NCBI RefSeq assembly: GCF_038397715.1
Contig: NZ_CP151633.1
Span: forward strand, 1,426,001 to 1,490,000
Direction of reading: 5' to 3'
DNA: 64,000 nt
DNA from: Microbacterium sp. LWO14-1.2
GTDB lineage: Bacteria > Actinomycetota > Actinomycetes > Actinomycetales > Microbacteriaceae
Shown here piece by piece: positions 13,689-29,857 of this stretch. The position numbers and the translations under genes are program-made. Numbering within the stretch: position 1 is the first letter of the stretch; every line of letters starts with the position of its first letter. Under the pieces are notes generated by a model that saw only the letters and a list, made by a program, of their open reading frames with translations, was not told the DNA's origin and ran no database searches.

Positions 13689-13692
13689 GAGG

Positions 13693-14964: not shown

Positions 14965-14996
14965 CGGTGTCTCCTTCGACGGGTGCAGGTCTGTGT

Positions 14997-15021
14997 TAAA
15001 CGTTTAGCAGTTAAACGATTA
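14997..15021. promoter_or_regulatory. Tandem LacI-type operators
   Basis: TAAACGTTTA (14997-15006) is a perfect dyad with the central CG typical of LacI-family sites, and TAAACGATTA (15012-15021) is an imperfect second copy 15 bp away. They lie 33-57 bp upstream of the binding-protein start, where they can block the promoter. The cognate regulator is probably the LacI gene of the same operon. Confidence 0.75.
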
Positions 15022-15062
15022 GCAAGAGAGTAGCCGGGCACCCGCGTGGCGCGCAAGAGGTG

Positions 15063-15422
15063 TCAGAGCTGTGCGCCGAGCAGCAGCCCGGCCGCTGCGG
15101 CCGCGAGGCCGAGCACCAGCATCCCGACAGCGTCGAAGAGGGATGCCGCGCGCTCGCCGTCCCGCCACAGCGCGACGGCGTCGAGCATGGCGGTGCTGAA
15201 GGTCGTGTATCCGCCGAGCAGACCGGCGCCGACGAGGAAGGCAGCGTCGGGCAGCGCGGTGGTCACCACGCCGAGGGCGAACGAGCCGGTGAGGTTCACC
15301 ACGAGGATGCCCCACGGGAACCGCCGACCCGCGATCGATCCCACGGCGAGGTCGAGGACGTACCGGAGCACCGCGCCCGCTCCCCCGGCGAGCGCCGCCG
15401 CCACGAACAGCAGCGGGCTCAC
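15063..15422 (-). CDS. crcB: CrcB family fluoride channel subunit
   Basis: A 119-aa four-helix membrane protein of the Fluc/CrcB family, which exports toxic fluoride passively as a dual-topology dimer. Landmarks are GGAGAVLRYVL near the N-terminus, VNLTGSFALG in helix 2 and the pore motif GLLGGYTTFSTAML (about 67-80). The GTG start at 15422 overlaps the stop of the partner gene in a GTGA arrangement. Tandem crcB genes usually encode oppositely oriented halves of a heterodimer, and this pair fits. No fluoride riboswitch was recognised upstream. Confidence 0.9.
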   Translation of the reverse strand: MSPLLFVAAALAGGAGAVLRYVLDLAVGSIAGRRFPWGILVVNLTGSFALGVVTTALPDAAFLVGAGLLGGYTTFSTAMLDAVALWRDGERAASLFDAVGMLVLGLAAAAAGLLLGAQL

Positions 15423-15808
15423 GACGCAGCCCCCGCCCCGGCGGTGGAGTCGTTCGGCCGGCCGAGGCGCAGCCCCAGCGCGGCGGCCGCGAGTCCGAGA
15501 ACCAGGCTCCCGACCGCATACGCCGCGGCGAGGGCGGGCGCGGCGGCCCAGAGCTCCACCGTGCCGGTCATGAAGGCGCTGTAGGTCGTGAATCCGCCCA
15601 GCACCCCGGTGCCGAGCAGCACGCGCAGGTCGGTGGTCTGCGGCATCCGGGCCGCGAGGAGCCCGATGAGGAACGCGCCGACGATGTTCACGGCGAAAGT
15701 CGCCAGGGGGATGCCGCCGGCATCCGGCACCCACAGGCCCACCGCGAGGCGGGCCGCCGTACCCGCGGTGCCCCCGAGGAAGACGAGGAGCACGCGGCGG
15801 GGAGTCAC
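15419..15808 (-). CDS. crcB: CrcB family fluoride channel subunit (partner)
   Basis: A 129-aa homologue of the adjacent CrcB protein. It has GGTAGTAARLAVG near the N-terminus, VNIVGAFLIG in helix 2 and GVLGGFTTYSAFM as the pore segment, with a Ser in place of the second Thr-Phe-Ser pattern. The start is GTG at 15808. Its last codons overlap the GTG of the second crcB by 4 bp, so the two subunits are translationally coupled and presumably made in equal amounts. The C-terminal tail is short and Ala/Gly-rich. Confidence 0.88.
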   Translation of the reverse strand: MTPRRVLLVFLGGTAGTAARLAVGLWVPDAGGIPLATFAVNIVGAFLIGLLAARMPQTTDLRVLLGTGVLGGFTTYSAFMTGTVELWAAAPALAAAYAVGSLVLGLAAAALGLRLGRPNDSTAGAGAAS

Positions 15809-15918
15809 CCGGCAACTCTAGCCCCGACCTCGGCCGCCTCAGGGTCGGACCGTCGCAGGACCACCGCGGAATGTCAACCCGCTGTGCAGCCGGGCGATGC
15901 GAGGCGAACACTTGTGCC

Positions 15919-17445
15919 ATGAAGCCGCTGTGGAAGCTCGACCGCACCCCGCCCACAGGCACCCCCTTCGACCCCGGAGCACGACACGACGTCATCGTCG
16001 TCGGCGCCGGTCTCACCGGCCTCTCGACCGCCGTGATGCTGACCAGAGCGGGACTCGACGTCGCGGTGCTGGAGTCGGGATCGGTCGGCGAGCTCGCGTC
16101 CGGAGGCAACACCGGCAAGCTGTCGTTGCTGCAGGCGCAGCGGCTCGCCGAGATCCGCCGCCACCACTCGGCGACGCTGCTGCAGGCCTACGTCGACGGC
16201 AACCGCGCGGGCATGGACTGGCTCACCGCGTTCGCCGACCACGCCGGAGTGCCGTACGAACGACGCATCGATCACACCTACGCGCAATCGGCAGACGGAC
16301 TCGAATCGGTGCGCGCGCAGCATGCCGCCGCCCAGGAGGCGGGACTCCCGACGCGCATGCTCACACGAGGCGAGCTTAGCGTCGACTTCCCGGCCGTGGG
16401 AGCCGTCGCCCTCGACGACCAGGTCACGATCGACCCCATGCGGGTGACCGAGGCGCTGGCGTTGGAGCTCCTCTCCGCCGGCGGCACGCTGCACACCGGC
16501 GTGCGGGTGACGGCGACGCACGCGCTTCCCGACCCGCGGGTTGAGACGACCACCGGCCCCCTGTTCGCCCAGCACATCGTCATCGCGACCGGGTATCCGA
16601 TCCTCGACCGCGGTCTGTACTTCTCGAAGATGCGGGCGTTCCGGTCGTACTGCGTGTCGTTCCGGGTACCCGGCGGCATCCCCGACTCCACGTTCATCTC
16701 GACCGACCAGCCGACGCGGTCCATCCGCCCCGTGTCCGCGTCCGACGGCCCTGCCTCCGCGGCGCAGCTGGTCGTCGGCGGCAACGGGCACCCGGTCGGG
16801 CGGTCCGACGGTGAGCGCGCCGCGGTCGACGAGCTCGTCGAGTGGACGCAGAAGTACTTCCCCGGCGCGGAGGAGACGCATCGCTGGTCGGCGCAGGACT
16901 ACGAGTCGCACAACCAGATCCCGTTCGTCGGCGCGATGCCGCGGGGTCTCGGCCGCATCCGGTTCGCGACCGGCTACGCCAAGTGGGGACTGTCGAACGC
17001 GCCGGCCGCGGCGCTGCGACTGACCACGGAGATCCTCGGCGCGAGCTGGCACGATCGTCCGGGGTGGATGGTGAAGATCGGCACCCGTCTGACCGTGCCC
17101 GCCGACCTCGCCCGCGGCGCCGTCGAGGGCGTGAAGGTCGCGGCCGCCGCCACCAAGGGATGGGTGGATGCCGAGAAGACCCCCGTGCCCGTGCCTCAGC
17201 CCGCCGAGGGCGAGGGCGTCGTGGCGAACCGCGGAGGGCTCCCGGTCGGCATCTCGACCGTCGACGGCGTCACCAGAGCCGTCGACGCCGTGTGCCCGCA
17301 CCTCGGCGGCGTCCTCGACTGGAACGACGCGGAGTGCACCTGGGACTGCCCGCTGCACGCCTCCCGCTTCACCGCCGACGGGACGCGCATCGAAGGACCG
17401 GCGCTCAGCGATCTGAAGAAGCTGCCCCGCACCCCGAAGGCCTGA
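15919..17445 (+). CDS. FAD-dependent oxidoreductase with C-terminal Rieske domain
   Basis: A 508-aa fusion of a DAO-type flavoprotein and a [2Fe-2S] Rieske domain. The FAD-binding Rossmann motif VVGAGLTGLS is at 27-36. The Rieske ligands are C459/H461 (CPHLGG) and C477/H480 (CPLHASRF). Related proteins are annotated as glycine/D-amino-acid oxidase-like flavoproteins with Rieske clusters; the substrate is generally unknown. ATG at 15919 (MKPLWKLDRT) is preferred because it starts the conserved part; an upstream in-frame ATG at 15871 adds a low-quality segment. It is transcribed divergently from crcB and convergently with the nitroreductase gene. Confidence 0.88.
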   Translation: MKPLWKLDRTPPTGTPFDPGARHDVIVVGAGLTGLSTAVMLTRAGLDVAVLESGSVGELASGGNTGKLSLLQAQRLAEIRRHHSATLLQAYVDGNRAGMDWLTAFADHAGVPYERRIDHTYAQSADGLESVRAQHAAAQEAGLPTRMLTRGELSVDFPAVGAVALDDQVTIDPMRVTEALALELLSAGGTLHTGVRVTATHALPDPRVETTTGPLFAQHIVIATGYPILDRGLYFSKMRAFRSYCVSFRVPGGIPDSTFISTDQPTRSIRPVSASDGPASAAQLVVGGNGHPVGRSDGERAAVDELVEWTQKYFPGAEETHRWSAQDYESHNQIPFVGAMPRGLGRIRFATGYAKWGLSNAPAAALRLTTEILGASWHDRPGWMVKIGTRLTVPADLARGAVEGVKVAAAATKGWVDAEKTPVPVPQPAEGEGVVANRGGLPVGISTVDGVTRAVDAVCPHLGGVLDWNDAECTWDCPLHASRFTADGTRIEGPALSDLKKLPRTPKA

Positions 17446-17450
17446 GCCCG

Positions 17451-18266
17451 TCAGTCGCGGGCGGCATCGGCCGGCGGCGCATCCCACCCCTGCTGGGGCT
17501 GCTCGCAGGTCTCGCGGAACACGTACTGCGACACGAGCTTGCGCTGATGACTCGACCAGTCGATCGCGGGACGACGCTGGTCAGGGGGCAGATACCCGAG
17601 CCGGTACACGGCCATGAGCTCGAGGTCGTCCGGCACGTGCAGGAGGTCGATGATCTCCTCCCACTTGCCCGGCACCTCCATGGGGAACGAGATGAACTGG
17701 ATCCCCATGCCGAGCTCCACCGTCGTGAGCCACACGTTCTCCATCGCGGCGCCCATGCTGAAGACCGAGTAGAACGACGACAGCTGTCCGGGCCGGTACT
17801 CGCTGCGGTCGAGCATGACCCCGAGGAGCAGCGGCGACCCGGCGACGAGCTTGTGGTTCTCCTCGCCGAGCGTCTTCGGCACGCCGAACGTGTTCATGAG
17901 CTTCTGTCCGCGCTTCGTGAACACCTGACTCGTGAAGGGCCGCAGGGCCGCAGGCAGCTTGTCGAACAGCATCCCGCTGCGCTTCTCCTCCATCTCCGCC
18001 TGGCTGAAGCGGAAGTACGGCTTGTAGCGCTCGAAGAACGTGCCATTCGACATCGCCTCCGTCATGCTCTCGCCCGAGATCTGCGCGATCCTGTCGATCG
18101 TCTCGCGGTTCTCGATCACGACGAACCGCCAGGGCTGGCTGTTCAGCTGCGAGGGCGCACGGCCCGCCGCCTCCAGCAGGATGCGCTGATGCTCCTCCGA
18201 CACGGGGTCGGGCAGGAACGGCCCGTTCGTGGTCTTGCGGCGGCGGATGACATCGAGCAGTTCCAT
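17451..18266 (-). CDS. Nitroreductase family protein
   Basis: A 271-aa FMN-dependent reductase of the nitroreductase fold. The N-terminus [20 protein letters not shown] carries the FMN-phosphate-contacting Arg residues. [17 protein letters not shown] is the flavin-binding Ser/Asn-Gln-Pro-Trp segment. GAAMENVWL and [11 protein letters not shown] mark the C-terminal part. Such enzymes reduce nitroaromatics or quinones using NAD(P)H. The gene begins 4 nt after the stop of a small membrane-protein gene on the same strand, suggesting one transcript. A weak ribosome site (GGAAG) lies about 10 nt upstream. Confidence 0.88.
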
Positions 18267-18270
18267 GCGT

Positions 18271-18645
18271 TCACTTCCGGTCGGAGGGGATGCGCGAGCA
18301 CACCAGGCCCGCGACGAGGAAGGGGGCTGCGGCGAGCGCGACCAGCGGATGCCGACGCGTGTGCGTGCCGAGATACGGGATCGCCGCGAGGGGCACGACG
18401 GCGGGGACGAGGGATGCCGCGGCCCGACGACTCGCCATCCTCGGTCGGGCCCAGAACGCGGCGCTGACCGCGGCTCCGGTCGCGGCGAACGTGGCGATGT
18501 AGAGCGCGTGGTGGAGCCAGCGGCACCCGCTCGTGTCGATCGTCTTCGTCGCGACGGCGGTGCCCAGCGCGGCGTTCGCGGCATATGCGACGGCGGCCGC
18601 GACGAACAGCGGAGCCGCGTTCGTGCGCTTCCGACGGGGGGCCAT
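18271..18645 (-). CDS. Small four-helix membrane protein, function unknown
   Basis: A 124-aa protein with a basic N-terminus (MAPRRKRTN) and four predicted helices at about 12-31, 47-65, 77-95 and 101-118. I do not recognise the family. It precedes the nitroreductase gene by 4 nt on the same strand. TAGTGT lies 6 nt before its ATG, so the transcript is probably leaderless. A CACCCC-type inverted repeat lies just upstream of this promoter. Confidence 0.75.
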
Positions 18646-18651
18646 GGCACG

Positions 18652-18657
18652 ACACTA
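18652..18657 (-). promoter_or_regulatory. -10 hexamer TAGTGT for a leaderless mRNA
   Basis: On the minus strand TAGTGT is followed by exactly 6 nt (CGTGCC) and the ATG at 18645, with no Shine-Dalgarno sequence. Confidence 0.5.
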
Positions 18658-18676
18658 CGCCCGGACACCCTCTGCC

Positions 18677-18749
18677 GAGCCACCCCCTTGCGCGCGAAAC
18701 ACCCCTTTGGATAGGAGCCACAAGGGGGTGGCTCGCACCCAAGGGGGTG
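18677..18749. repeat. CACCCC-type four-arm intergenic repeat, copy 1
   Basis: Two CACCCC units (GAGCCACCCCCTTG at 18677-18690; CACCCCTTTGG at 18700-18710) are followed by two inverse units (CAAGGGGGTGGCTC at 18721-18734; CCCAAGGGGGTG at 18738-18749). The first and third arms pair perfectly over 14 bp. It begins 15 bp past the stop codon of the MerR gene, so it may act as its terminator. Related copies are at 42627, 44595 and 63931. Confidence 0.85.
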
Positions 18750-18763
18750 TGTCGGCGGGGTCG

Positions 18764-19552
18764 TTAGAGGTTCGCCTCCGCGTACACGCGAAGCGCGTCG
18801 CGCACGAACTCCGCCCCGTGCGTCCCGCCCGACGATGTCGCGTAGTTCGCACCGAAGCGCGGGTCGGCCACGTACATCTCGCCGAGACCGATCACGTAGG
18901 CCTTGACGTCTCCGCCCGGCGCCGACGCCGGGGTGCCTGGCACACCGGTGAGCCAGTCGACGTGACGGCGGGCGAGCTGCTGCGCTTCTGCGGATGCCGG
19001 GTCGCTGCCGCTCTCGGCGGCGGCGATCCAGTCGCGTCCGAGGTCGGACACGCGCTGCTGCCAGTCGGCGCGCTCGGCCTCGGTCATCCCGCGCCACCAG
19101 CGGTCGCCGTCGGCGTAGGCCTGACTGCCCCAGCGCTGCTCGACCTCGTCCTTGTACCGGGTGTGGTCGAAGCCGTCGAACATGTCCTCTGCCATGAGTT
19201 GTTCACCTCCTCTCAATGCAGTTATGGTCTTCTCCACCGACGCGATCTGCCGCGCCAGCCTGTCCTGCTCCTCGCGCAGCACCGCGAGATGGGTCTCCAG
19301 GGCCGCCTCTTCCGTGCTCCCCTGCGCACCGGCGCGCAGCACCTCCGCGATCTGCGGGAGCCCGAGTCCGAGCTCGCGCAGCAGCAGGATCCGCTGCAGA
19401 CGCATCAGAGCCGCCTCGTCGTAGTGCCGGTACCCGTTGCCGGCGATGCGCGAGGGCGGCAGCAATCCGATGTCGCCGTAGTGGCGAAGCGTCCTGCTGG
19501 TCGTGCCGGCGAGGCGTGCGATCTCCTGGATCGACCAGTCCCTCCGTGCCAT
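18764..19552 (-). CDS. MerR family regulator with TipAS-like ligand domain
   Basis: A 262-aa regulator resembling TipAL. The MerR winged helix-turn-helix occupies about residues 6-75 ([20 protein letters not shown]), followed by a dimerisation coiled coil (about 85-115, [18 protein letters not shown]) and a TipAS-type domain (about 125-258) containing [17 protein letters not shown]. TipAS domains bind thiopeptides and other macrocyclic or multidrug ligands and switch the regulator to an activator. Its own promoter has the long spacer and dyad characteristic of MerR control. It is divergent from the candidate peptide operon at 19.7 kb, which may be its target or its ligand source; that link is inference. 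Confidence 0.9.
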
Positions 19553-19591
19553 CTCCTCCTCCTTCAGCCACGTCGTCCGGGTGATATCTCC

Positions 19592-19622
19592 ACGGTAGAG
19601 GTTGACGTTGCGTCAAGGTCAA
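19592..19622 (-). promoter_or_regulatory. MerR-type promoter with 19-bp spacer and dyad
   Basis: Reading the minus strand, -35 is TTGACC (19617-19622) and -10 is TACCGT (19592-19597), separated by 19 bp. The spacer contains the inverted repeat TTGACG-3-CGTCAA (19602-19616). An over-long spacer with a dyad is the hallmark of promoters twisted into activity by MerR proteins, so the merR gene is probably autoregulated. Confidence 0.8.
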
Positions 19623-19734
19623 ACCCTCTGTCCGAGGTAGTCGATCCGGCATATACGACTCATATGACGGCATTAAAGAGTCGAATGACTTGTTCTGTCG
19701 ACGTGCGGACTGCGAGCATCGGGACGAATCGACG

Positions 19735-19746
19735 AAAGGAGGTGAT
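19735..19746 (+). promoter_or_regulatory. Full-length Shine-Dalgarno sequence AAAGGAGGTGAT
   Basis: AAAGGAGGTGAT ends 2 nt before the ATG at 19749. It is complementary over 11-12 bases to the 3' end of 16S rRNA, far longer than any other ribosome site in the window. Very strong initiation, or sequestration of the leader, is suggested for the small peptide gene. Confidence 0.8.
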
Positions 19747-19748
19747 TC

Positions 19749-19991
19749 ATGTCTGTGATGACTCTCATGGAACCGACGCTCATGCGTCGACGGGTGAGCG
19801 ATGCACTCGACGACGCGCTCGTGCGCCTCGACGGCTGGTGGCTGGTGCTCATCGCCGCGCTGATCGTGTTCGGCGTCGCGTTCCTCGCAGCGCTCGCGCT
19901 GTGGTGCTTCTTCTCCAACGGCGGACGCCGTTTCAGCGGCAACTGGAAGTGGGGAAAGAGCGGCGTATCCGTCTGGATCGAGTGCATCTGA
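19749..19991 (+). CDS. 80-aa membrane-anchored peptide, candidate secreted-peptide precursor
   Basis: Not a family I recognise. Residues 1-29 are a polar segment with RRR at 13-15, 30-55 a hydrophobic helix (LVLIAALIVFGVAFLAALAL), and 56-80 a tail starting SNGGRR. The tail is cationic and Trp-rich (W66, W68, W76; R60, R61, K67, K70) and ends in ...ECI with C79; a Gly-Gly pair sits at 58-59. The positive-inside rule predicts N-in, C-out, the topology of site-2-protease substrates. It is the first gene of an operon with an ABC exporter-like pair and a HELGH metalloprotease, after an exceptionally strong ribosome site, and is followed by a hairpin. This suggests a peptide precursor processed in or next to the membrane. 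It could instead be a small accessory subunit of the transporter. Confidence 0.6.
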   Translation: MSVMTLMEPTLMRRRVSDALDDALVRLDGWWLVLIAALIVFGVAFLAALALWCFFSNGGRRFSGNWKWGKSGVSVWIECI

Positions 19992-19999
19992 TGAACAAC

Positions 20000-20032
20000 G
20001 TCCCTCGGCGTCGCCTCCCGGCGCCGAGGGAC
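20000..20032 (+). terminator. Hairpin between peptide gene and ABC genes
   Basis: An 11-bp perfect stem (GTCCCTCGGCG at 20000-20010 with CGCCGAGGGAC at 20022-20032) and an 11-nt loop lie 9 nt after the peptide stop codon. There is no T-run, so it is more likely an attenuator, processing site or 3'-end stabiliser than a full terminator. It would let the peptide be made in excess over the downstream proteins. Confidence 0.6.
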
Positions 20033-20056
20033 CCGCAGTGAAGTGAAAGGCGCAGC

Positions 20057-20779
20057 ATGCTCCTCCAGGTCTCCTCCGTCTCCTTCGCGTACGCGAAGCG
20101 GGCTCCCGTCCTCCGAGACGTGTCGTTCGCGATCGACCGCGGCGAGCGGGTCGCGCTCGTCGGCCCCAACGGCTCGGGCAAATCGACGCTGATCCGTCTG
20201 CTGGCCGATCTGCTGCAGCTTCGCGGCGGCAGCATCCGCGTCGACGGGCGCTCGCATCAGGATCGTGATGCCAGGCAGAGCGTGGCGTACGTCGCCAGCA
20301 ACGACTTCCTCCCCCAGTTCCTCACCGGCGCCGAGTACGTCGGCCTGATGCACCGGCTGTACGGACTCAGGGCCGACGAGAATCAGGTGGCGCAGGCGTT
20401 CGCGCGCTATCAGATGGCCTCACGGGAGTCCGATCTCATCGAGGACTATTCGCACGGCATGCGCAAGAAGGTGCAGGTCATCTCCAGCCTGCTGGTCCGG
20501 CGGCCGCTGACGATCGTCGACGAGACCCTCAACGGAGTGGATGCCGATGCCCTCCGTGCCTTCACCGAGGATGCGCGGACTCTCACGGACGACACCGCGC
20601 TCCTCTTCTGCAGCCATGACTTCCGGCTGATCCAGGCGACCTGCGACCGGGTCATCGTGCTGTTGGACGGTCGACTCCGCCACGACCTGTCGCTCGACGA
20701 GGTGCTGGCGCGCTTCGGGTCCGTCGACGCCCTGGTGAAGCAGACGACAGGCGACTCCTCGGCATCCTCGCGATCATGA
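20057..20779 (+). CDS. ABC transporter ATP-binding protein of the peptide operon
   Basis: A 240-aa single-domain ATPase. Walker A is GPNGSGKST (36-44), the signature is the divergent YSHGMRKK (131-138) in place of LSGGQ, and Walker B is LTIVDE (151-156) followed by TLNGVD. The divergent signature and length resemble ABC-2-type and peptide/bacteriocin export or immunity ATPases. Its stop overlaps the start of the permease gene (ATGA), so the two are translationally coupled. It is predicted to energise the membrane protein encoded downstream; the cargo is plausibly the 80-aa gene product or its processed tail. Confidence 0.88.
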   Translation: MLLQVSSVSFAYAKRAPVLRDVSFAIDRGERVALVGPNGSGKSTLIRLLADLLQLRGGSIRVDGRSHQDRDARQSVAYVASNDFLPQFLTGAEYVGLMHRLYGLRADENQVAQAFARYQMASRESDLIEDYSHGMRKKVQVISSLLVRRPLTIVDETLNGVDADALRAFTEDARTLTDDTALLFCSHDFRLIQATCDRVIVLLDGRLRHDLSLDEVLARFGSVDALVKQTTGDSSASSRS

Positions 20780-22287
20780 CTCCCTCGCTGACGCTCGCGC
20801 GCTTCCTCACGCTCTTCCTCGTCCGCCGAGTCCTGCGCCGTGGAGCCCTGCAGGTGCCCCTCGTGCGATGGACCCTGGTCGTAGTGATCGTCATGGCGGT
20901 CGTCGCGCTGTTCGCCTTCGGCGTGGTCACCCTGCGCCAGCTGATCGTCGATCCCGAGATGCTGCGGCCCCTGCTCCGCGTGGCGGGAGCAGCCGTGCCG
21001 CTGTGGGTGGTCGCGCTCTTCACCCTGGTCAGGATCCTCTTCCTGAAATCCGGCGATCTCGTGGAGCTGACGTACTGCCTGCCGATCACGAACCGGGCGC
21101 GGATGCTGGGATTCATGCTGTTCGAGGCGCTCCTCGTCGGCGGCGGGCTGGTGCTGATCCTCGGCGCCCTGATCTGCGGATCCCTGTCGATCGGAGGCCC
21201 CGGCGTCCTCGACGACATCACGACCTGTCTCCTGATGCCGGCGGTGGTCGCCTACCTGCTCGCGAGCGCCTACTACCTCGCGCTCGAGCGGATGCTGATG
21301 AGACTACGCCTCGCCCGCCTGCGCTCGTTCCTCGTGCCGATCGTGCTCGCGGCGACGCTCGTCGCCCTGTACGCGTGGGTGTCGTCGCAGTCCGAGGCGG
21401 TGCTCTTCGCCTCGGTCGGACAGGGCACGCATTTCGCCCTGCCGCTCGTGTTCGCCGATATCGCCGAGGCGCAGGGGCTGCTCCTCGCGACACTCTGCTG
21501 GCTCGCTGCGGTCGTCCTCGCCGCGGCGATCGTGCTCGTCGTCAATCCGCGCTCGTTCGAGCCGACGCGACGCTTCGCCGCCGCCCCGCGGCTCCTGGGC
21601 GGCTCGGAGTTCGGCGCCTACTTCGACGCCCACCTGCGCGCCATCGAGACCATGACGGTCTACGGGCTCGCCTTGGCCGGCTCCTACGCCCTGCTGCTGC
21701 TGGACATCGCCCTGCCACCCTTCCTGCTGCTCGCGGTGACCGTGCAGTCGGTGTACGCCTACGTGTCGACCGAGCCGCTGCGAGCCTGCGGTCCGCGACG
21801 GCACGACCCGCTCGTGCGGTACCTGCTGCTGCTCGGGCCGCAGCTCGTGGCGTTCCTGCTGTGCGCTGTGCCGACCGGCGTGATGTCGGCGGTCACCGGA
21901 ATCGACATCGTGTCGATCCTCGCGGTCGTGGGCTTCGGGGTCGTCAACATCGTGGTGCTGACGCTGGCCGGCATCACGTTCCCGCCCGAGAAGGGCAATC
22001 CGTTCTCGGTGGTCGTCGGCGTGGTGACGACGGGTCTCGCGACCGGGGCGCTGCTGCTCGGCACGAACCTGCTCGGACTCCCCGCCTGGGCGAGCATCAC
22101 CGCGCTCATCGTCATCGGGGTCGGCGCCGCCGCCCTGTCGCTTGTCGGAATGCAGAGAATCGAAAGGACGGAACGTCATGAAGTGGTTGTTCAGAGTGCT
22201 CGGAAGCGCGGTCGGCGCGGTCGTGATCCTCGCCGGGGTGGTGGTGACGACGTTCGTGTGGCTCATGTTCTCGGCCGGGTCGACTGA
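20776..22287 (+). CDS. Multispan ABC permease of the peptide operon
   Basis: A 503-aa integral membrane protein with about twelve hydrophobic segments, beginning with helices near residues 32-55 and 70-90. A cytoplasmic motif LTYCLPITNRARML (about 98-111) resembles the PLS-type coupling segment of ABC-2-like exporters with a fused 2x6-helix layout. The start overlaps the ATPase stop codon. The final 37 codons overlap the next gene by 110 bp and read as low-complexity Arg/Gly-rich sequence (RKRGRRGRDPRRGGG), unlike the rest. Either the reading frame runs past its natural end because a stop was lost, or a frameshift lies near 22140-22175. Transport role is inferred from the ATPase partner. Confidence 0.8.
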   Translation: MTPSLTLARFLTLFLVRRVLRRGALQVPLVRWTLVVVIVMAVVALFAFGVVTLRQLIVDPEMLRPLLRVAGAAVPLWVVALFTLVRILFLKSGDLVELTYCLPITNRARMLGFMLFEALLVGGGLVLILGALICGSLSIGGPGVLDDITTCLLMPAVVAYLLASAYYLALERMLMRLRLARLRSFLVPIVLAATLVALYAWVSSQSEAVLFASVGQGTHFALPLVFADIAEAQGLLLATLCWLAAVVLAAAIVLVVNPRSFEPTRRFAAAPRLLGGSEFGAYFDAHLRAIETMTVYGLALAGSYALLLLDIALPPFLLLAVTVQSVYAYVSTEPLRACGPRRHDPLVRYLLLLGPQLVAFLLCAVPTGVMSAVTGIDIVSILAVVGFGVVNIVVLTLAGITFPPEKGNPFSVVVGVVTTGLATGALLLGTNLLGLPAWASITALIVIGVGAAALSLVGMQRIERTERHEVVVQSARKRGRRGRDPRRGGGDDVRVAHVLGRVD

Positions 22288-22492
22288 GGGACGGCGACTC
22301 GGCTGGTTCGGCTCGCTCTTCGTCGAGGTCGACCAGCGGGTCGACGGCTCGGCCGGACTCGGGGTCGGGTTGCACGACCCGCTGCCCCTCGTCGTCACGG
22401 GAGTGATCATCGTCGTGCTGCTGCTGGCGGTGTTCGCCGTCTACGACGTGCTGCTCGAGAGGCGCCGCCAGTTGCTCTCCGGCACCGACTGA
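22178..22492 (+). CDS. Two-helix membrane protein of the peptide operon
   Basis: A 104-aa protein with helices at about 8-33 and 69-90 separated by an extracytoplasmic segment rich in Gly (STEGRRLGWFGSLFVEVDQR), and a basic C-terminal tail (LLERRRQLLSGTD). The ATG at 22178 is preceded by GAAAGGACG. It is embedded in the end of the permease frame and followed after 1 nt by the metalloprotease gene, so it belongs to the same operon. No family recognised; an immunity or accessory subunit is a reasonable guess only. Confidence 0.65.
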   Translation: MKWLFRVLGSAVGAVVILAGVVVTTFVWLMFSAGSTEGRRLGWFGSLFVEVDQRVDGSAGLGVGLHDPLPLVVTGVIIVVLLLAVFAVYDVLLERRRQLLSGTD

Positions 22493-22493
22493 C

Positions 22494-23015
22494 GTGTGGG
22501 CGGCGACGGTCGACAGACTGACCGCGGGAGCGACCGCCCGTTGGCTTCTCCCCGCAGGGTGGCCGGGCCATCTGGCATTCGCGGTGTGCGTGTCGGCCAC
22601 GGGGGTTTTCGCGATCATCACGTCCCAGTCCGCCGTCGTCACCGCGCTGCTGACGCTGTGCCTGCACTACATCGTCGGACTCTGCGGCTCATTCGCGCTG
22701 CATGAGCTCGGTCATGCGCTCGTGCTCCTCCGCGCAGACGGTGGCACGAGCGTGACGCTCGAACGCACGGCCTGGCGCATCTCGGTCAGGGCGACCGGCG
22801 CGATTCGGGGCCGGGACGCCTTCCTCGCGGCGTTGGCCGGACCGGGCGGATGCGCGGTCGCCGGCGGCATCCTTCTGCTTGCCTGCCCGCACGCCCTGCT
22901 TCACGTGTGGTTCTTCGCGCATGCGGTGTTCCTGCTGCCCGTCTTCGGCGACGGACGCGCGCTGATCTCGGGCGCGCGACGGTGGGATCGACGCCTCGGC
23001 GAGATCACCCCTTGA
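22494..23015 (+). CDS. Short M50-like (site-2) membrane metalloprotease
   Basis: A 173-aa membrane protein with the zinc-protease motif HELGH (H70, E71, H74) in a hydrophobic helix. It also has the M50-type segment LAALAGPGG (111-119) and a second metal-site motif LLPVFGDG with D153. These are the three landmarks of site-2 intramembrane proteases, here in a very compact protein. The GTG start is 1 nt after the preceding stop codon, indicating coupling. As last gene of the peptide operon, its natural substrate may be the N-in single-pass 80-aa product. The stop TGA overlaps the -35 box of the next promoter. Catalytic activity is inferred from motifs. Confidence 0.78.
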   Translation: MWAATVDRLTAGATARWLLPAGWPGHLAFAVCVSATGVFAIITSQSAVVTALLTLCLHYIVGLCGSFALHELGHALVLLRADGGTSVTLERTAWRISVRATGAIRGRDAFLAALAGPGGCAVAGGILLLACPHALLHVWFFAHAVFLLPVFGDGRALISGARRWDRRLGEITP

Positions 23016-23063
23016 CACGATCGAGATATATCGTGTTACTCTGTCGCAACACGATATATCGTG
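23012..23063 (+). promoter_or_regulatory. Promoter with paired PadR-type operators
   Basis: A consensus -35 TTGACA (23012-23017) is followed by a -10-like region near 23035-23042 (TACTCT). Two dyads overlap and follow it: CGAGATATATCGTG (23022-23035) and the perfect CACGATATATCGTG (23050-23063). The downstream operon ends in a PadR gene, so autoregulation is likely. Confidence 0.8.
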
Positions 23064-23090
23064 ATCCGTCTCAACACAGGAGAAGCAGAC

Positions 23091-23933
23091 ATGACCGAGA
23101 AGTGGCTCATCGCCCCGGGCGAGGAACGCGTCATCGACATCGAGAACGTCAGCAGGCTGAAGGTCGGTCTGGTCGGCGGGCAGGTCGACGTGATCGCCCA
23201 CGACGAACCCGGCATCCGCATCGAGGTGCACGGCGTCACCACCAAGGACCTCCGTATCGAATCCCATGACGGCGAGGTCGAGATCGACCACCCGCAGCTG
23301 GGATGGGACAACTTCCTCGAGGTGTTCCGGAACTTCGGCTCGGGCGGCCCCAAGGCCGAGGTCAGCATCGCCGTGCCCCGCGCGATCGCCCTCACCCTGG
23401 GCGTCGTCAGCGCCGGCGCCCTCGTCTCCGGCATCCGCAACGACGCCCGTCTGAACACGGTCTCGGGCGACATCATCGTCGACACGCTCATCGGCGACCT
23501 CACCGTGAACTCGGTGTCGGGCGACGTGCAGGTGCGCGGACTGACCGGCTCCATCACCGCGAACAGCGTCTCGGGCGACGTCGCCGTCACCGGCACCGTG
23601 CGCAAGGCGACCGTCGACATCGTCTCGGGATCGACCCTCGTCGACGCCGCGGGCGACGTCAACACCATCAACATCAACTCGGTCTCGGGCGGCACCACCG
23701 TGCGGCTCGACGAGTCGCTGGCCGCGAACTACGTGATCCGCTCGCTGAGCGGACGACTTCTCATCGACGGCGTCGAGCGCGGTTCCTCCGGCATCAACAA
23801 CTACACCGGCTCCACGGGCGAGCTCGCCGGACGATTCGTCGACCTGCGCGCCAACTCCGTCTCGGGCGGCGTGACGGTGCTGCGCCGCACGCCCGCATCG
23901 ATCGAGAACGACGCCGAATGGGAGGAAGCATGA
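23091..23933 (+). CDS. DUF4097-type beta-strand repeat protein
   Basis: A 280-aa protein dominated by repeated NSVSGDV-like beta-strands (about residues 115-270: LNTVSGDIIVDT, VNSVSGDVQV, ANSVSGDVAV, INSVSGGTTV), the right-handed beta-solenoid pattern of DUF4097. There is no signal peptide or anchor, so it is probably cytoplasmic. The ATG at 23091 follows AGGAGAAG. It overlaps the PadR gene by 4 bp (ATGA) and shares its operator region. The function of DUF4097 is unknown; association with PadR regulators is common in actinobacteria and suggests a role in envelope stress or in regulator activity. Confidence 0.88.
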   Translation: MTEKWLIAPGEERVIDIENVSRLKVGLVGGQVDVIAHDEPGIRIEVHGVTTKDLRIESHDGEVEIDHPQLGWDNFLEVFRNFGSGGPKAEVSIAVPRAIALTLGVVSAGALVSGIRNDARLNTVSGDIIVDTLIGDLTVNSVSGDVQVRGLTGSITANSVSGDVAVTGTVRKATVDIVSGSTLVDAAGDVNTININSVSGGTTVRLDESLAANYVIRSLSGRLLIDGVERGSSGINNYTGSTGELAGRFVDLRANSVSGGVTVLRRTPASIENDAEWEEA

Positions 23934-24556
23934 GTCCCGCCGTCTTCTCCCACGGAGACCTGCGCCTCTACCTGCTCTCGCTGCTGGCCGAATCCCCCCA
24001 GCACGGGTACGGCATCATCCAGGCGCTCACCGACCGCACCGGCGGCACGTACACGCCGAGCGCCGGCACCATCTACCCGCGACTCGCGAAGCTCGAAGAG
24101 GAGGGCCTCGTCTCGAAGACCGTCGACGGCCGCACCACGATCTACGCGATCACCGATGCCGGACGCGCCGAGCTGTCGTCCCGTGAGGGCGACCTCGCGG
24201 GCATCGAGGCGGGGCTCACCGATTCAGTGCGCCTGATCGCGAACGAGGTGCGCCAGAGCGTCAAGGAGGCGATGAAGAGCCTGAGGGCCGACTTCGCCAC
24301 CGCCGAGAAGGACGACCGCGCAGCATCCAAGTCCCGCCCGCGCACGCCGGGTGACGACGAGCGCATCGTCAGCCGCGAGGAGCTCCACCGGGCGGACGCC
24401 GTGATCAACGCATTCCGTGCCCGCATCCGCACCGACCTCCGCACGCACGTCGCGAGGGGCGGCGTGCTCCCGGCCTCCGTCGTCTCGGAGCTGGAGGACG
24501 GACTGGATGCCGCGGCCCGCGGCATCACGACGGCCCTCGCCGCGCTGTCGCGCTGA
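23930..24556 (+). CDS. PadR family transcriptional regulator
   Basis: A 208-aa regulator with the PadR winged helix (about residues 8-85: LRLYLLSLLAESPQHGYGII then TYTPSAGTIYPRLAKLEEEG). A C-terminal helical region (about 95-205) probably dimerises and senses a ligand. GGAGGAAGC precedes the ATG, which overlaps the stop of the DUF4097 gene. The perfect CACGATATATCGTG palindrome in front of the operon is the expected binding site. A long hairpin terminator follows. Confidence 0.9.
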   Translation: MSPAVFSHGDLRLYLLSLLAESPQHGYGIIQALTDRTGGTYTPSAGTIYPRLAKLEEEGLVSKTVDGRTTIYAITDAGRAELSSREGDLAGIEAGLTDSVRLIANEVRQSVKEAMKSLRADFATAEKDDRAASKSRPRTPGDDERIVSREELHRADAVINAFRARIRTDLRTHVARGGVLPASVVSELEDGLDAAARGITTALAALSR

Positions 24557-24564
24557 TTCGCCCG

Positions 24565-24606
24565 ACGCGTCGACCCCCGCGGAACCTTCCGCGGGGGTCG
24601 ACGCGT
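24565..24606 (+). terminator. Strong intrinsic-type hairpin after the PadR gene
   Basis: Arms 24565-24584 and 24587-24606 are perfectly complementary over 20 bp (ACGCGTCGACCCCCGCGGAA on the left). The stem is followed by TTTCA. It ends the DUF4097/PadR operon. Confidence 0.85.
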
Positions 24607-24620
24607 TTCACCGCGCTAGC

Positions 24621-24752
24621 AAAGCCCCACCGGGTCACCGCGTTTCGTCTCGGTCGGCTCCGCCGTCCTCGCTCAACGACCGGAGACCCACCGGGTCACC
24701 GCGCGAGCAAAGCCCCACCGGGTCGTTGAGCGAGCGAAGCGAGACGAAACGC
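24621..24752. repeat. Intergenic repeat cluster containing GAGCGAGCGAAGCGAGACGA
   Basis: GCGTTTCGTCTCG (24640-24652) and CGCTCAACGACC (24670-24681) are repeated in inverse orientation as GGTCGTTGAGCG (24721-24732) and CGAGACGAAACGC (24740-24752). The 16-bp direct repeat AAAGCCCCACCGGGTC occurs at 24621 and 24709. A single copy of the inverse unit recurs at 47602-47632. The cluster separates two convergent genes and encodes nothing. Confidence 0.85.
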
Positions 24753-24770
24753 GCCGAACGACGCGCGACG

Positions 24771-25313
24771 CTACTCCGTCCAGATCTCGGGCTGCGAGTC
24801 GGGAACCGGCTCCTCCAGCGGCACGACGAGCACAGACCGGTGCTGCCGGTGAGCGAGGCGCGCGGCCACCGATCCGGTGAAGAACTCCCGGATCGACTCC
24901 CCGATGCCGCGCTTGCGGGTGCCCACCACGATCAGCTGGGCGTCGAGCTTGTTCGCGAGGGCTTTGATCGCGAGTGCCGGGTCACCGACGAGCTGGCGTG
25001 CGGTCCAGGTCAGGCCCGTGCCGTCGAGGGCCTGAGCGGCCTCGGCCTGCACGGCTTCAAACTCCGCGGTGCCCGCGTCGAAGTTGATGTCGATGGGCGC
25101 CGAGTGCACGTAGCCGTCCGGATCCTCGTAGGTCACGAAGCGCGTGACGTCGACGTGCACGACGACGAGCGGCACCCGCAGCAGGCGCGCAAACCGCGAC
25201 GCCTCCTGGATGACGCGAGGACTCTGACCCGGCTGGATGCCGACGATCACCGCCTTCTGCAGCGTCGCGTTCTGGACGGCCTCGTCCGAGGGAGAAGAGG
25301 TGTTGTCGGTCAT
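24771..25313 (-). CDS. Universal stress protein family protein
   Basis: A 180-aa UspA-like protein. KAVIVGIQPGQSPRVIQEAS starts the alpha/beta fold at about residue 21. The ATP-binding signature GTRKRGIGESIREFFTGSVA (about 132-151) has the Gly-x2-Gly-x9-Gly-Ser pattern, followed by the VLVVP strand. The nucleotide-binding class is therefore likely. ATG at 25313 is preceded by AAGGGAG about 10 nt upstream; an in-frame ATG at 25331 is possible but lacks this. The gene is monocistronic and faces the PadR operon across a repeat cluster. Confidence 0.9.
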   Translation of the reverse strand: MTDNTSSPSDEAVQNATLQKAVIVGIQPGQSPRVIQEASRFARLLRVPLVVVHVDVTRFVTYEDPDGYVHSAPIDINFDAGTAEFEAVQAEAAQALDGTGLTWTARQLVGDPALAIKALANKLDAQLIVVGTRKRGIGESIREFFTGSVAARLAHRQHRSVLVVPLEEPVPDSQPEIWTE

Positions 25314-25463
25314 CGAGATCGCTCCCTTCACCAGCCTGGCTATCAGGCAGTGCGGTCTACCCGCGTGCTATTCTGAATGCTACTCTTACCGGCCTCGAGC
25401 CGGTGTCGTGAATGCATCGGGCCCCAGCTAGCCCGCAGCTCAACTCGTGAGGGGGTCTCTGGC

Positions 25464-25652
25464 ATGGGCCGTGGCCGTCAGAAGGCGAAGCACACCAAAA
25501 TCGCCCGCGAACTGAAGTCATTCAGTCCGTCCGTCAACTACTCGGCGCTCGAACGAGAGCTCGGTCACCCGAGCGACTCGGAAGACGAGTACGTCGACAA
25601 GTGGGCTGACGAGTACGCCGACGAAGACGAGGACGAACTAGAGAAGGCCTGA
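25464..25652 (+). CDS. DUF3073 family small acidic protein
   Basis: A 62-aa actinobacterial protein starting MGRGRQKAKHTKIARELK, with a basic first half and an acidic C-terminus (ADEYADEDEDELEKA). This is the DUF3073 pattern: small, conserved, of unknown function. GAGGGGG lies about 10 nt upstream of the ATG. TATTCT (25369-25374) may be the -10 box, giving a leader of about 80 nt that contains a short ACCGGC/GCCGGT hairpin. A terminator follows 22 nt after the stop. Confidence 0.9.
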   Translation: MGRGRQKAKHTKIARELKSFSPSVNYSALERELGHPSDSEDEYVDKWADEYADEDEDELEKA

Positions 25653-25674
25653 CCGCCCTCTCGTCTCGTCGTCT

Positions 25675-25695
25675 CCCCCGTGCACCGCACGGGGG
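25675..25695 (+). terminator. Intrinsic terminator after the DUF3073 gene
   Basis: CCCCCGTGC (25675-25683), loop ACC, GCACGGGGG (25687-25695), followed by TTTCGTCGT. The perfect 9-bp GC stem and short T-run match a rho-independent terminator. Confidence 0.85.
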
Positions 25696-25764
25696 TTTCG
25701 TCGTGTCCGGGCGCGCTGCAGTGTCCGTGAGTGGTCACCGCGCTCCTGCACGGCCGGCGATCAC

Positions 25765-27066
25765 TCACCACCGGCCGTAGCGGCGTTCCCAGTCCTCTTC
25801 GATCGTGCGGCGCCGTCCGGCGACGAGACCTGCCGGGATCGACAGCACGAGCACGGCGATCACGACGAGGATCGGCACCGTCCAGCCGCCGGTGGTCTCG
25901 TGCAGCAGGCCGATGAGCAGCGGGAACACCGCCGCGATGGCGTAGCCGATGCTCTGCACGAACCCGCTGAGTGCGACGGCGCTCTCGGGAGTACGTGCGC
26001 GGACGCTCAGCAGCACGAGGCTGAGCGGGAACAGGATGGCCGTGAGGCCGTAGATCAGCACCCAGAGCGCGGGGGCGGCGGTCGGCGCGAACAGCAGTCC
26101 GAGAAGACCGGCGATGCCCGCCGCCACCGCGAACAGGTACAGCGGCCGCGTCGCCTGGAACCGCACGACGAGCACGGGCACGAGCAGTCCGCACGGCAGA
26201 CCGGCGAGCGCGAACAGTGACAGCAGGAAGCCGCCCGATGCGGGGGTGACCCCGGCGATGTCGACGAGCAGGGTCGGCAGCCAGGCGAACGCGACGTACG
26301 CCACGGTCGACGACGTGCCGAACACGAGGGCGAGTGCCCACGCGAGGGGAAGACGCCACAGCCGCCCGAACACCCGGGGGTTCGCGGGCACCGTCGTGAT
26401 CGGGCCGGTGCCGACGACGGCCGCGTCGAGGCGCTCGTCGACGGGCTCGTGGTCGGGCAGCGGGGGCGCGGCGACAGCCGGAGCGGCAGGGCGTCGTCGA
26501 TCGCCGATCAGCACTCCGATCCAGGGCAGCAGTGCGAGCACCGAGAACAGGCCCCACAGACCCAGCGAGACCCGCCAGCCCAGGGAGTCCGCGAGCGGGA
26601 CGGCCACGAGCGGCGGCACGAACGTCGAGATCGACAGCGTCGTCGAATAGAGGGTCATCATCACGCCGAGTCGGTCGGCGAAGTACTTCTTGACCAGCGG
26701 CGGCAGCAGCACGTTGCCCGCACCGACCCCCGCGAACACGACGACGGTGGCGGCGAGCAGGCTCGTCGAGTCCGCGGCGAAACCGCGCAGCAGCAGACCG
26801 AGCGACATGAGCGCCAGCGCAGCGACCGCGACGCGCTCGAGCCCGAACCGCCGCTCGACAAGCGGGGTCACGAGCCCGAAGACGGCGAAGCACACCGGAG
26901 GCGCGGCGCCGATGAGTCCGACCACGACGGGCGAGACCGGGAAGTCCTCAGCGATGTGGTCGATGACCGGCGAGAGGGATGCCACGGCGGAGCGCAGCGA
27001 GAATGCGACCAGCACGATGCCGATCAGCGCGAGGGCCCGCCCCCGCCACAGCGGCTGACTGCTCAT
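25765..27066 (-). CDS. MFS transporter (CynX/NimT-like)
   Basis: A 433-aa major facilitator with twelve predicted helices and a central cytoplasmic loop at about residues 190-235 (GDRRRPAAPAVAAPPLPDHE). The N-terminal SLRSAVASLSPVIDHI and the overall pattern match the CynX/NimT group (cyanate, 2-nitroimidazole and related small solutes). The ATG has AGGAACC upstream. The gene lies 40 nt downstream of purF on the same strand, so read-through from the purine genes is possible. The substrate is not determinable. Confidence 0.88.
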   Translation of the reverse strand: MSSQPLWRGRALALIGIVLVAFSLRSAVASLSPVIDHIAEDFPVSPVVVGLIGAAPPVCFAVFGLVTPLVERRFGLERVAVAALALMSLGLLLRGFAADSTSLLAATVVVFAGVGAGNVLLPPLVKKYFADRLGVMMTLYSTTLSISTFVPPLVAVPLADSLGWRVSLGLWGLFSVLALLPWIGVLIGDRRRPAAPAVAAPPLPDHEPVDERLDAAVVGTGPITTVPANPRVFGRLWRLPLAWALALVFGTSSTVAYVAFAWLPTLLVDIAGVTPASGGFLLSLFALAGLPCGLLVPVLVVRFQATRPLYLFAVAAGIAGLLGLLFAPTAAPALWVLIYGLTAILFPLSLVLLSVRARTPESAVALSGFVQSIGYAIAAVFPLLIGLLHETTGGWTVPILVVIAVLVLSIPAGLVAGRRRTIEEDWERRYGRW

Positions 27067-27106
27067 GAGCGGTTCCTGTGCCCGTCGAAGGGCAGGGACC
27101 CCGCCG

Positions 27107-28579
27107 TCACGAGGTCTGCGACCCCTCCACCCACGCGAGGTACTCGTCGGAGACCGTGCCGGTCACGTAGCGGCCGTCGAAGCAGCTCATGTCGAGGTCG
27201 GTCAGCACCGATCCCTCGGTGATCGCGGCCTTGAGGTCGTGGACCTCCTGATACACGAGGTGGTCGCAGCCCAGCTCCTCCGCGATCTCGGGGATCGTGC
27301 GGCCGTGCGCGATGAGCTCGTGCCGCGAGGGCATGTTGATTCCGTAGACGTGCGGATGCCGCACGGGCGGCGCCGCGGAGGCGAACGTGACCGAGGTCGC
27401 GCCGGCATCCCGAGCCATCTGGATGATCTGCTTCGAGGTCGTGCCGCGCACGATCGAGTCGTCGATCAGCAGCACGTTCTTGCCCTGGAACTCCGTCGAC
27501 ATGGCGTTCAGCTTCTGCCGCACGCTCTTCTTGCGCACCGCCTGACCGGGCATGATGAACGTCCGGCCGACGTAGCGGTTCTTGTAGAACCCCTCGCGGT
27601 ACTCGATCCCGAGCTTGCGGGCGACCTCCATGGCCGCAGGCCGCGCGGAGTCGGGGATGGGCATGACGACGTCGATCTTGTCCATCGGCACGTGCTTGGC
27701 GATCGTGTCAGCGAGACGGTCGCCCATGCGCAGGCGGGACTCGTACACCGAGATGCCGTTCATGACGGAGTCGGGGCGAGCGAGGTAGACGTACTCGAAC
27801 GCGCACGGCGCGAGCGTCGCGTCGGTCGCGCACTGCTTGGTGTGCAGCTCGCCGTCGTTGGTGATGAACACGGCCTCGCCGGGCTCGACCTCGCGCACGA
27901 TGTCGTAGTCGCCGTTCTCGAGCACGAGCGACTCGCTCGCGACGACCCACTCGTCCTTGCCCTCTGCGCCGGCGACGGTCGACGGGCGACGCCCGAGGAT
28001 GAGGGGTCGGATGCCGAACGGGTCGCGGAACGCGAGCAGACCGTATCCGGCGATCACCGCGATGACCGCGTACGCGCCCTCGATGCGCTCGTGCGTGCGG
28101 GCGACGGCCTCGAACACGCGCTCCGGGTCGAGGTCGACGGTCGAGGTGGTGTTCTGCAGCTCGCCCGCCAGCACGTTGAGCAGCAGCTCGGTGTCGCTCG
28201 ACGAGTTCAGGTGGCGGCGGTCGCGCTTCGCCATGTCGGCGGTGAGCTCACGCGTGTTGGTGAGGTTGCCGTTGTGGATGAGGATGATGCCGTAGGGCGC
28301 GTTCACGTAGAACGGCTGCATCTCCTCCTCGCTCGAGGCCGTGCCCTTGGTGGCGTAGCGCACGTGCCCGAGGCCGACGTTGCCGAGCAGTCCGCGCATG
28401 TCGCGGGTGCGGAACGCTTCGCGCACCATGCCCTGCGCCTTCGCGTTGTGCATGACGCCGTTCGCCTCGGCGGTGGCGATGCCCGTCGCATCCTGGCCGC
28501 GGTGCTGCAGCAGGAGGAGAGCGTCGTAGATGTCCTGATTGACCGGGGCCGTCCCGACCATTCCGACGATGCCGCACAT
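27107..28579 (-). CDS. purF: Amidophosphoribosyltransferase
   Basis: A 490-aa enzyme catalysing the first committed step of purine synthesis: PRPP plus glutamine gives phosphoribosylamine. The class II glutaminase starts immediately after Met with the catalytic Cys2 (MCGIVGMVGT), so there is no propeptide beyond Met1. LLLQHRGQDATGI follows. The phosphoribosyltransferase PRPP loop is VLLIDDSIVRGTTS. Several Cys residues (in APCAFEYVYLARPDS, ELGCDHLVY, MSCFDGRYVTG) could bind the Fe-S cluster of Bacillus-type PurF. The gene begins 6 nt after purM, so both are co-transcribed. Confidence 0.97.
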   Translation of the reverse strand: MCGIVGMVGTAPVNQDIYDALLLLQHRGQDATGIATAEANGVMHNAKAQGMVREAFRTRDMRGLLGNVGLGHVRYATKGTASSEEEMQPFYVNAPYGIILIHNGNLTNTRELTADMAKRDRRHLNSSSDTELLLNVLAGELQNTTSTVDLDPERVFEAVARTHERIEGAYAVIAVIAGYGLLAFRDPFGIRPLILGRRPSTVAGAEGKDEWVVASESLVLENGDYDIVREVEPGEAVFITNDGELHTKQCATDATLAPCAFEYVYLARPDSVMNGISVYESRLRMGDRLADTIAKHVPMDKIDVVMPIPDSARPAAMEVARKLGIEYREGFYKNRYVGRTFIMPGQAVRKKSVRQKLNAMSTEFQGKNVLLIDDSIVRGTTSKQIIQMARDAGATSVTFASAAPPVRHPHVYGINMPSRHELIAHGRTIPEIAEELGCDHLVYQEVHDLKAAITEGSVLTDLDMSCFDGRYVTGTVSDEYLAWVEGSQTS

Positions 28580-28585
28580 GGGTGG

Positions 28586-29713: not shown

Positions 29714-29719
29714 CCGTCA

Positions 29720-29725
29720 AGACTA
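29720..29725 (-). promoter_or_regulatory. -10 hexamer TAGTCT, leaderless purM
   Basis: On the minus strand TAGTCT is followed by TGACGG (6 nt) and the GTG start at 29713. No ribosome-binding sequence fits between them. Confidence 0.6.
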
Positions 29726-29857
29726 CCGCCCGTCGAGGCCCTGGATCGCCGGGGCGGAAGCTCGCTCGGGCGCTGCCGGCGCGACCGACGGATCATCCAT
29801 GGACAGAACCGCCGCCACGGGCGAGACTGGCATCCGATACGCCCGGAGGGAGACCAG

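Follow-up and report, generated by a model that had tools for sequence, protein, structure and literature searches.

The chromosome of Microbacterium sp. LWO14-1.2, a 3.78-Mb genome in a single contig (NZ_CP151633.1), was analysed over a stretch of 64,000 nucleotides (positions 1,426,001 to 1,490,000; hereafter the window, whose own numbering is used below). Within it, five co-directed open reading frames (ORFs) spanning positions 19749-23015 very probably constitute a biosynthetic gene cluster for a TMcin bacteriocin, arranged tmcA-tmcB-tmcC-tmcE-tmcP, a reading to which we assign a probability of about 0.93 from the sequence. Gene for gene, this operon corresponds to the core of the TMcin cluster of Dickey et al. 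2025 (PMC12328743) and of the preprint by Nur et al. 2026 (PMC13252029), both of which study one S. aureus strain. The operon had been called unrecognised in a preliminary description of this DNA; the class was in fact published in 2025, and the window holds a further, apparently intact cluster of that recently described class. Among the papers listed in the literature searches, which did not extend to the Fig. 3 tree of PMC12328743, none places TMcin in Microbacterium.

Five genes matching the TMcin core

Gene content and the homology of the five genes are established directly for the window, as are the conservation of catalytic residues and cysteines and the predicted folds. ORF coordinates (Table 1) bear out the close spacing and overlap first described: tmcA and tmcB are 65 bp apart, tmcB overlaps tmcC by 4 bp and tmcC overlaps tmcE by 110 bp, and 1 bp separates tmcE from tmcP. 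A simple hydropathy count assigns one membrane segment to TmcA, none to TmcB, 11 to TmcC, two to TmcE and four to TmcP, which makes the permease of about 12 helices proposed earlier a fair estimate and agrees with the two-helix protein proposed beside it; the YSHGMRKK signature of the ATP-binding cassette (ABC) ATPase was likewise found, at residue 131.

All five genes match, by BLASTP or profile comparison, an operon with the same gene set on the S. epidermidis plasmid pHOB2 (NZ_CP018844.1; locus L104), whose peptide gene is annotated hypothetical. The matches include those of the ATPase (BLASTP E 1e-51), the permease (hhalign 99.2%, E 3.5e-19, 455 columns) and the two-helix protein (hhalign 97.3%, E 2e-11); for TmcA, the comparison (E 3e-12, hhalign 99.2%) was with this staphylococcal relative rather than with the G1905 precursor. 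Unlike the window operon, that of pHOB2 has the order B-C-E-P-A, has Lys rather than Glu before the second Cys of the peptide, and lies near a gene for a helix-turn-helix (HTH) regulator. Neither Pfam nor NCBIfam has a family at E <=0.001 for the permease or the two-helix protein. The permease is 503 residues long in the window and 472-473 in 7 of the 10 other Microbacterium loci in which it is uninterrupted, and the tmcE start adopted here is an ATG, the listed ORF opening earlier, at a TTG.

Published TmcP is a DUF3267 protein with the site-2 protease fold, an HExxH motif and a distal Asp (PMC13252029, PMC12328743). In the window protein, HExxH and the distal Asp are invariant across 30 alignment rows and the best Protein Data Bank (PDB) matches of the structure model are site-2 proteases, which together support the HELGH-type site-2 protease recognised at the outset; the Pfam DUF3267 match itself is weak (E 0.024, below the family cut-off).

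The resemblance to TMcin-G1905, encoded on S. aureus plasmid pCT545, extends from the five core genes and their predicted roles to a Trp-flanked helix, two conserved cysteines and a C-terminal beta hairpin in the peptide, an HExxH-plus-Asp protease of site-2 type, a permease of about 12 helices and a two-helix escort. The differences are that tmcA stands first in the window and last in G1905, that the window cluster is chromosomal whereas that of G1905 is on a plasmid, and that neither tmcD nor an HTH regulatory pair was recognised next to the window operon. Because tmcD is missing outside staphylococci (PMC13252029), the failure to recognise it here is no argument against placing the operon in the class, homologues of which occur in Bacillota and Actinomycetota in three gene arrangements (PMC12328743).

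The precursor and its predicted maturation

The AlphaFold2 model of TmcA has a helix at residues 29-56, close to the single helix proposed at 30-55, and predicts strands at 62-69 and 72-79 that would form a two-stranded antiparallel beta hairpin (pLDDT ~73-75). Trp30 and Trp52, which flank the helix, are invariant in 53 alignment rows. Of the further features pointed out earlier, Gly58-Gly59, Trp66, Trp68, Trp76 and the near-terminal Cys79 are all present; what had been overlooked is Cys53, the partner of Cys79 in a pair that forms a disulfide in TMcin-G1905 (PMC13252029) and whose spacing is 24-26 among 64 distinct peptides of the family. Gly58-Gly59 probably does not serve as a double-glycine cleavage site, for although all 31 rows of Microbacterium type have it, the wider family does not conserve it.

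A profile of the peptide, searched against 5.8 billion proteins, returned 211 cluster representatives at E <=0.01, and among the 120 family matches listed the names are 'hypothetical' or 'uncharacterized' except for one product name (DUF6574). Since Pfam and NCBIfam contain no family at E <=0.001 for TmcA or for 30 peptides of its family (the best being DUF6574, E 0.0011), such genes tend to be annotated hypothetical. When the family profile was searched against the PDB, no match had an E value under 0.15.

The TMcin-G1905 precursor loses an N-terminal leader to the protease, and the secreted product retains the transmembrane helix and the C-terminal hairpin (PMC13252029, PMC12328743). The first Cys of TMcin-G1905 is at position 25 (PMC13252029), which we took to refer to the mature peptide; a start 24 residues before Cys53 is then predicted, at Gly29, and a 52-residue peptide with Cys at 25 and 51, of mass 5802.8 Da with the disulfide. 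It would be 65% A/V/I/L/M/F/W/C; the published peptide is 5.8 kDa and 65% hydrophobic, the latter figure being based on a set of residues that may differ from ours (PMC12328743). The residue before the predicted cut is Asp in 64 of 64 distinct peptides, and the one after it Gly or Ala in 63 of 64. The leader so predicted has about 28 residues compared with 45 in TMcin-G1905, the cysteines are 26 apart compared with 25, and Glu78-Cys79 occupies the place matching Glu49 and Cys50 named in G1905 (PMC12328743, PMC13252029).

In the published pathway TmcP cuts TmcA, the two-helix TmcE acts as escort, and the TmcB ATPase and 12-helix TmcC permease carry out export (PMC13252029, PMC12328743). This supports by analogy the antimicrobial role proposed before the class was recognised here, with the compact site-2 protease processing the small membrane peptide and the ABC transporter exporting it. 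The two-helix protein is no incidental neighbour and corresponds to tmcE, which is required for TmcA cleavage in the G1905 model system (PMC13252029). Topology, cleavage site, disulfide, secretion and killing are accordingly modelled here on S. aureus G1905. TmcA would insert into the membrane with its N-terminus inside; a cytoplasmic tail, considered at first for its positive charge, was dropped in view of the published TMcin work. The Cys53-Cys79 disulfide would be formed outside, by general oxidases since no tmcD is seen beside the operon. TmcE would then bring TmcA to TmcP, which would cut ahead of the helix, the likely point being Asp28/Gly29, and TmcBC would extract and secrete the 52-residue helix-plus-hairpin peptide. 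Once secreted, the peptide may oligomerise in the membranes of other Gram-positive bacteria into a beta-barrel pore.

Over 12 loci tmcA is under purifying selection, its ratio of nonsynonymous to synonymous polymorphism (pN/pS) being 0.33 in residues 1-28, 0.23 in 29-56 and 0.31 in 57-80. This bears first on whether the cluster is still active in this strain, given the visible decay of related clusters in Canibacter, Leifsonia, Kocuria and a 0.93-Mb genome (see below). That it has lost its activity appears improbable, in that the five window ORFs are open and the catalytic motifs intact, in addition to the selection on tmcA.

A membrane peptide, a site-2 protease and an ABC exporter could also be the parts of a system resembling those for epipeptides or pheromones, in which the protease would free the cationic, Trp-rich tail from the helix for export as a soluble signal or antimicrobial, as was first envisaged. 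The epipeptide systems EpeXEPAB and YydFGHIJ likewise combine a small precursor, a membrane protease and an ABC transporter, although they include a radical-SAM epimerase and their product is not known to contain a transmembrane helix; in pheromone processing by Eep with EcsAB, too, a site-2 protease is followed by ABC export of a membrane-derived peptide, although there short linear peptides arise from signal sequences and the genes are not known to form one operon. Pairings of this kind are known (PMC7157817 among others). We nevertheless consider release of the tail very improbable for the window: conservation is no weaker in the helix than in the tail (pN/pS 0.23 against 0.31, above), and no radical-SAM gene was recognised among the ORFs at 16500-27000, where no profile search was aimed at one. 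A cut that frees the tail fits neither the joint invariance of Cys79 and Cys53, at the end of the helix, nor the homologous pathway, whose product still contains the helix. A stable small subunit of the transporter or of a membrane-stress complex, never released, might account for the high conservation of TmcA (80% mean column identity in the 31 Microbacterium-type rows) and its tight co-occurrence with the transporter genes, yet this is the least credible alternative of all, since homologous TmcA is processed and secreted and since the strong Shine-Dalgarno sequence and the hairpin of tmcA in the window fit a product made in excess.

Table 1. Features of the TMcin operon and its surroundings (window numbering)
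Feature	Position	Strand	Basis
MerR regulator with TipAS antibiotic-recognition domain	18764-19552	-	Pfam 8.5e-29; divergent from tmcA
Repeat pair TCATATGAC / TCGAATGAC (listed also as TCATATGAC, TCGAATG), 21 bp apart, upstream of tmcA	19660..19687	+	
tmcA, 80-aa TMcin precursor	19749..19991	+	ORF, alignments, pHOB2 match, AlphaFold2 model
Predicted TmcA leader, residues 1-28	19749-19832	+	cleavage point predicted from published first-Cys position in TMcin-G1905
Predicted mature TmcA peptide, residues 29-80	19833-19988	+	same cleavage prediction from TMcin-G1905
Cys53 codon, first Cys of predicted disulfide, outer helix end	19905..19907	+	invariant in 30-row and 53-row alignments
Cys79 codon, second Cys of predicted disulfide	19983..19985	+	invariant in 30-row and 53-row alignments
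Intercistronic hairpin tmcA/tmcB, 14 bp, 5-nt loop, without T-run	20000..20032	+	folding
tmcB, ABC ATPase, signature YSHGMRKK from residue 131	20057..20779	+	Pfam ABC_tran 9.9e-27
tmcC, polytopic permease, ~11-12 membrane segments	20776..22287	+	hhalign, hydropathy
tmcE, two-helix protein, putative escort	22178..22492	+	hhalign, hydropathy; escort role by analogy
tmcP, compact four-segment site-2 protease, 173 aa, GTG start	22494..23015	+	alignments, structure matches, pHOB2 match
TmcP HELGH codons	22701-22715	+	motif
TmcP distal Asp153 codon	22950-22952	+	motif

Distribution, chromosomal site and decayed relatives

The arrangement in the window is not due to chance. Of 294 other Microbacterium genomes sampled, 11 have a clear homologue of the protease (E at most 3e-42), and each of these 11 has the five genes side by side in the order seen in the window. 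Identity to the window proteins at these loci is 69-85% for TmcA, over 80 residues, and 44-55% for TmcP; at L032 the match to the permease is split between two frames. Three weaker protease matches in the genus (L035-L037; E 1e-4 to 7e-4) have no operon around them, L037 having no more than weak matches to the ABC, protease and peptide genes, and these in another order.

In Microbacterium the operon has a MerR gene of TipAS type on one side and a DUF4097 gene on the other, with tipAS not found at one locus (L026). At two others, L027 (5704-8397) and L029, a gene that we take to be glgP (glycogen phosphorylase) stands between tmcP and the DUF4097 gene, implying that the site saw more than one insertion or loss. 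Among the tipAS loci opened, which are the best 30 places from 59 genomes, two carry the operon, 26 have DUF4097 within 0.9 kb and no operon, one has glgP and one has neither. The best tree of tipAS (39 rows, 11 with the operon) implies a minimum of four gains or losses, but a single origin of the operon would be compatible with its well-supported branches taken by themselves, and all 11 operon-bearing rows fall inside one well-supported part of 22 rows. From the locus counts and the tree, the operon looks like a cassette at one site with a patchy presence.

Searching genome contigs with a single protease sequence gave no match, whereas an alignment as query recovered 27 loci in titled genome records. 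These belong to Intrasporangium, Streptomyces, Kibdelosporangium, Glycomyces, Arthrobacter, Paenarthrobacter, Tessaracoccus, Canibacter, Kocuria and Microbacterium, and include a Propionibacteriaceae metagenome-assembled genome and one Bacillota genome (Paenisporosarcina). With two further loci, 29 were examined. In 26 of the 29 the other genes have a peptide match next to them, two of these 26 (L085, L087) sharing their contigs with the genus loci L027 and L025; the three without one are either cut at a contig end (L090, L101) or decayed (Canibacter L099). The peptide gene is last in Paenisporosarcina and first in all other loci where it was found. The Tessaracoccus locus has matches to tmcA, tmcB and tmcP only, Kocuria L102 has tmcB in two frames, a short tmcC and no match to tmcE, and in Paenarthrobacter L091 the peptide lacks an in-frame leader.

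Among 349 genomes of the family, the permease and protease profiles match the same five, two of which have tmcA. Both of these have tmcP, and a homologue of the 80-aa gene without the protease, which the preliminary description had regarded as evidence against the system, was thus not encountered among them. The other three have no tmcA match anywhere in the genome, and their clusters are decayed: tmcB is interrupted in Canibacter (G299), and Leifsonia (G349) retains tmcE, tmcP and only part of tmcC, with no match to tmcB. The third, a 0.93-Mb genome (G309; L045, 5860-8577), keeps tmcC and tmcB with YSHGMRKK intact, but its tmcP matches in the C-terminal half only, the catalytic half being missing, and a small membrane ORF at the position of tmcE has no BLAST match to that gene. 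A vaguely tail-like 28-aa ORF upstream of the Canibacter remnant was set aside, with nothing in its support. Of 394 genomes of the class, 32 have a protease-profile match; 28 of these were likewise set aside, being judged other M50 proteins (E 3e-6 or worse, ORFs of at least 320 aa).

Flanking genes, expression signals and self-immunity

Flanks were compared at 17 operon loci (16 and the window) from ten genera by BLASTP at E 1e-8. No flanking ORF family is common to at least three of the ten genera; two are common to two genera, and of these one is clearly an ABC ATPase of a generic kind. A motif scan, as distinct from a profile search, found no CxxC ORF (120-330 aa, for the pattern used) at 12001-31000 of the window and flagged 11 ORFs in other loci. 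Thus, these 17 loci are not seen to have in common, beside the core, any tmcD, any tailoring enzyme or any gene dedicated to immunity. Elsewhere in the window genome there are one VKOR match and five Thioredoxin_4 matches.

Two neighbours were rejected as parts of the system. Of 59 Microbacterium genomes sampled, 38 have an orthologue of the TipAS-MerR gene (at least 60% identity), and because only the window genome and G001 among those 38 had a clear protease match, it is not a dedicated regulator; the DUF4097 gene is likewise found near tipAS in the loci without the operon counted above. A TTGACG..CGTCAA palindrome lies between the TipAS-MerR gene and tmcA. The repeat pair upstream of tmcA is a possible regulator site: its exact pattern occurs once in the genome and its reversed control not at all, but over 12 aligned loci the pair is degenerate, the second copy being poor in at least four (L024, L030, L033, L034). 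Upstream of tmcA in Streptomyces L080 and L081 is a coding stretch in the same frame. We take it to be of LuxR helix-turn-helix type and possibly a local regulator. Inverted repeats ATATATCGTGTT / AACACGATATAT are found at ~23024-23065, upstream of the DUF4097 gene, and are perhaps an operator for the presumably PadR-like gene downstream of it.

A hairpin follows the tmcA stop codon in 12 of 12 Microbacterium loci, with a longest uninterrupted helix of 10-19 bp and z scores, computed against 60 dinucleotide shuffles, of -2.7 to -6.2. When 21 other loci were folded (leaving out L085 and L087, as well as L090, L091, L096, L099, L101 and L103), 17 had a helix of at least 9 bp (z -2.4 to -7.7) and four did not (L082, L083, L084, L102; z 0.6 to -1.8). 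The stem sequence varies between groups with pairing retained, as judged without a formal count of covariation. Together with the strong Shine-Dalgarno sequence upstream of tmcA, the hairpin would fit a precursor made in excess of its machinery.

Because no flanking family is common to at least three of the ten genera, self-immunity, to which the published TMcin work assigns no gene, might lie inside the core, and the actinobacterial TMcin cassette might be fully self-contained in its five genes, with TmcE, or TmcBC pumping the peptide from the producer membrane, or both, protecting the producer. If this were true, the cluster of the 0.93-Mb genome would be an immunity-only remnant; the failure of the ORF at its tmcE position to match tmcE lowers the odds, and we regard the self-contained cassette as a rather doubtful possibility.

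Beyond the published TMcin work, the present analysis adds the patchy presence at one Microbacterium site, the hairpin after tmcA and the lack of any flanking family common to at least three genera. An apparently intact actinobacterial cluster with 64 distinct aligned precursors, and with relatives in which this chromosomal site lacks the operon, would provide a second model for TMcins. Such a model would reveal which features are general, among them the Asp-Gly/Ala cleavage point, the invariant cysteine pair and the Glu-Cys near the end of the peptide, and would show whether five core genes suffice for maturation without TmcD and for self-immunity.

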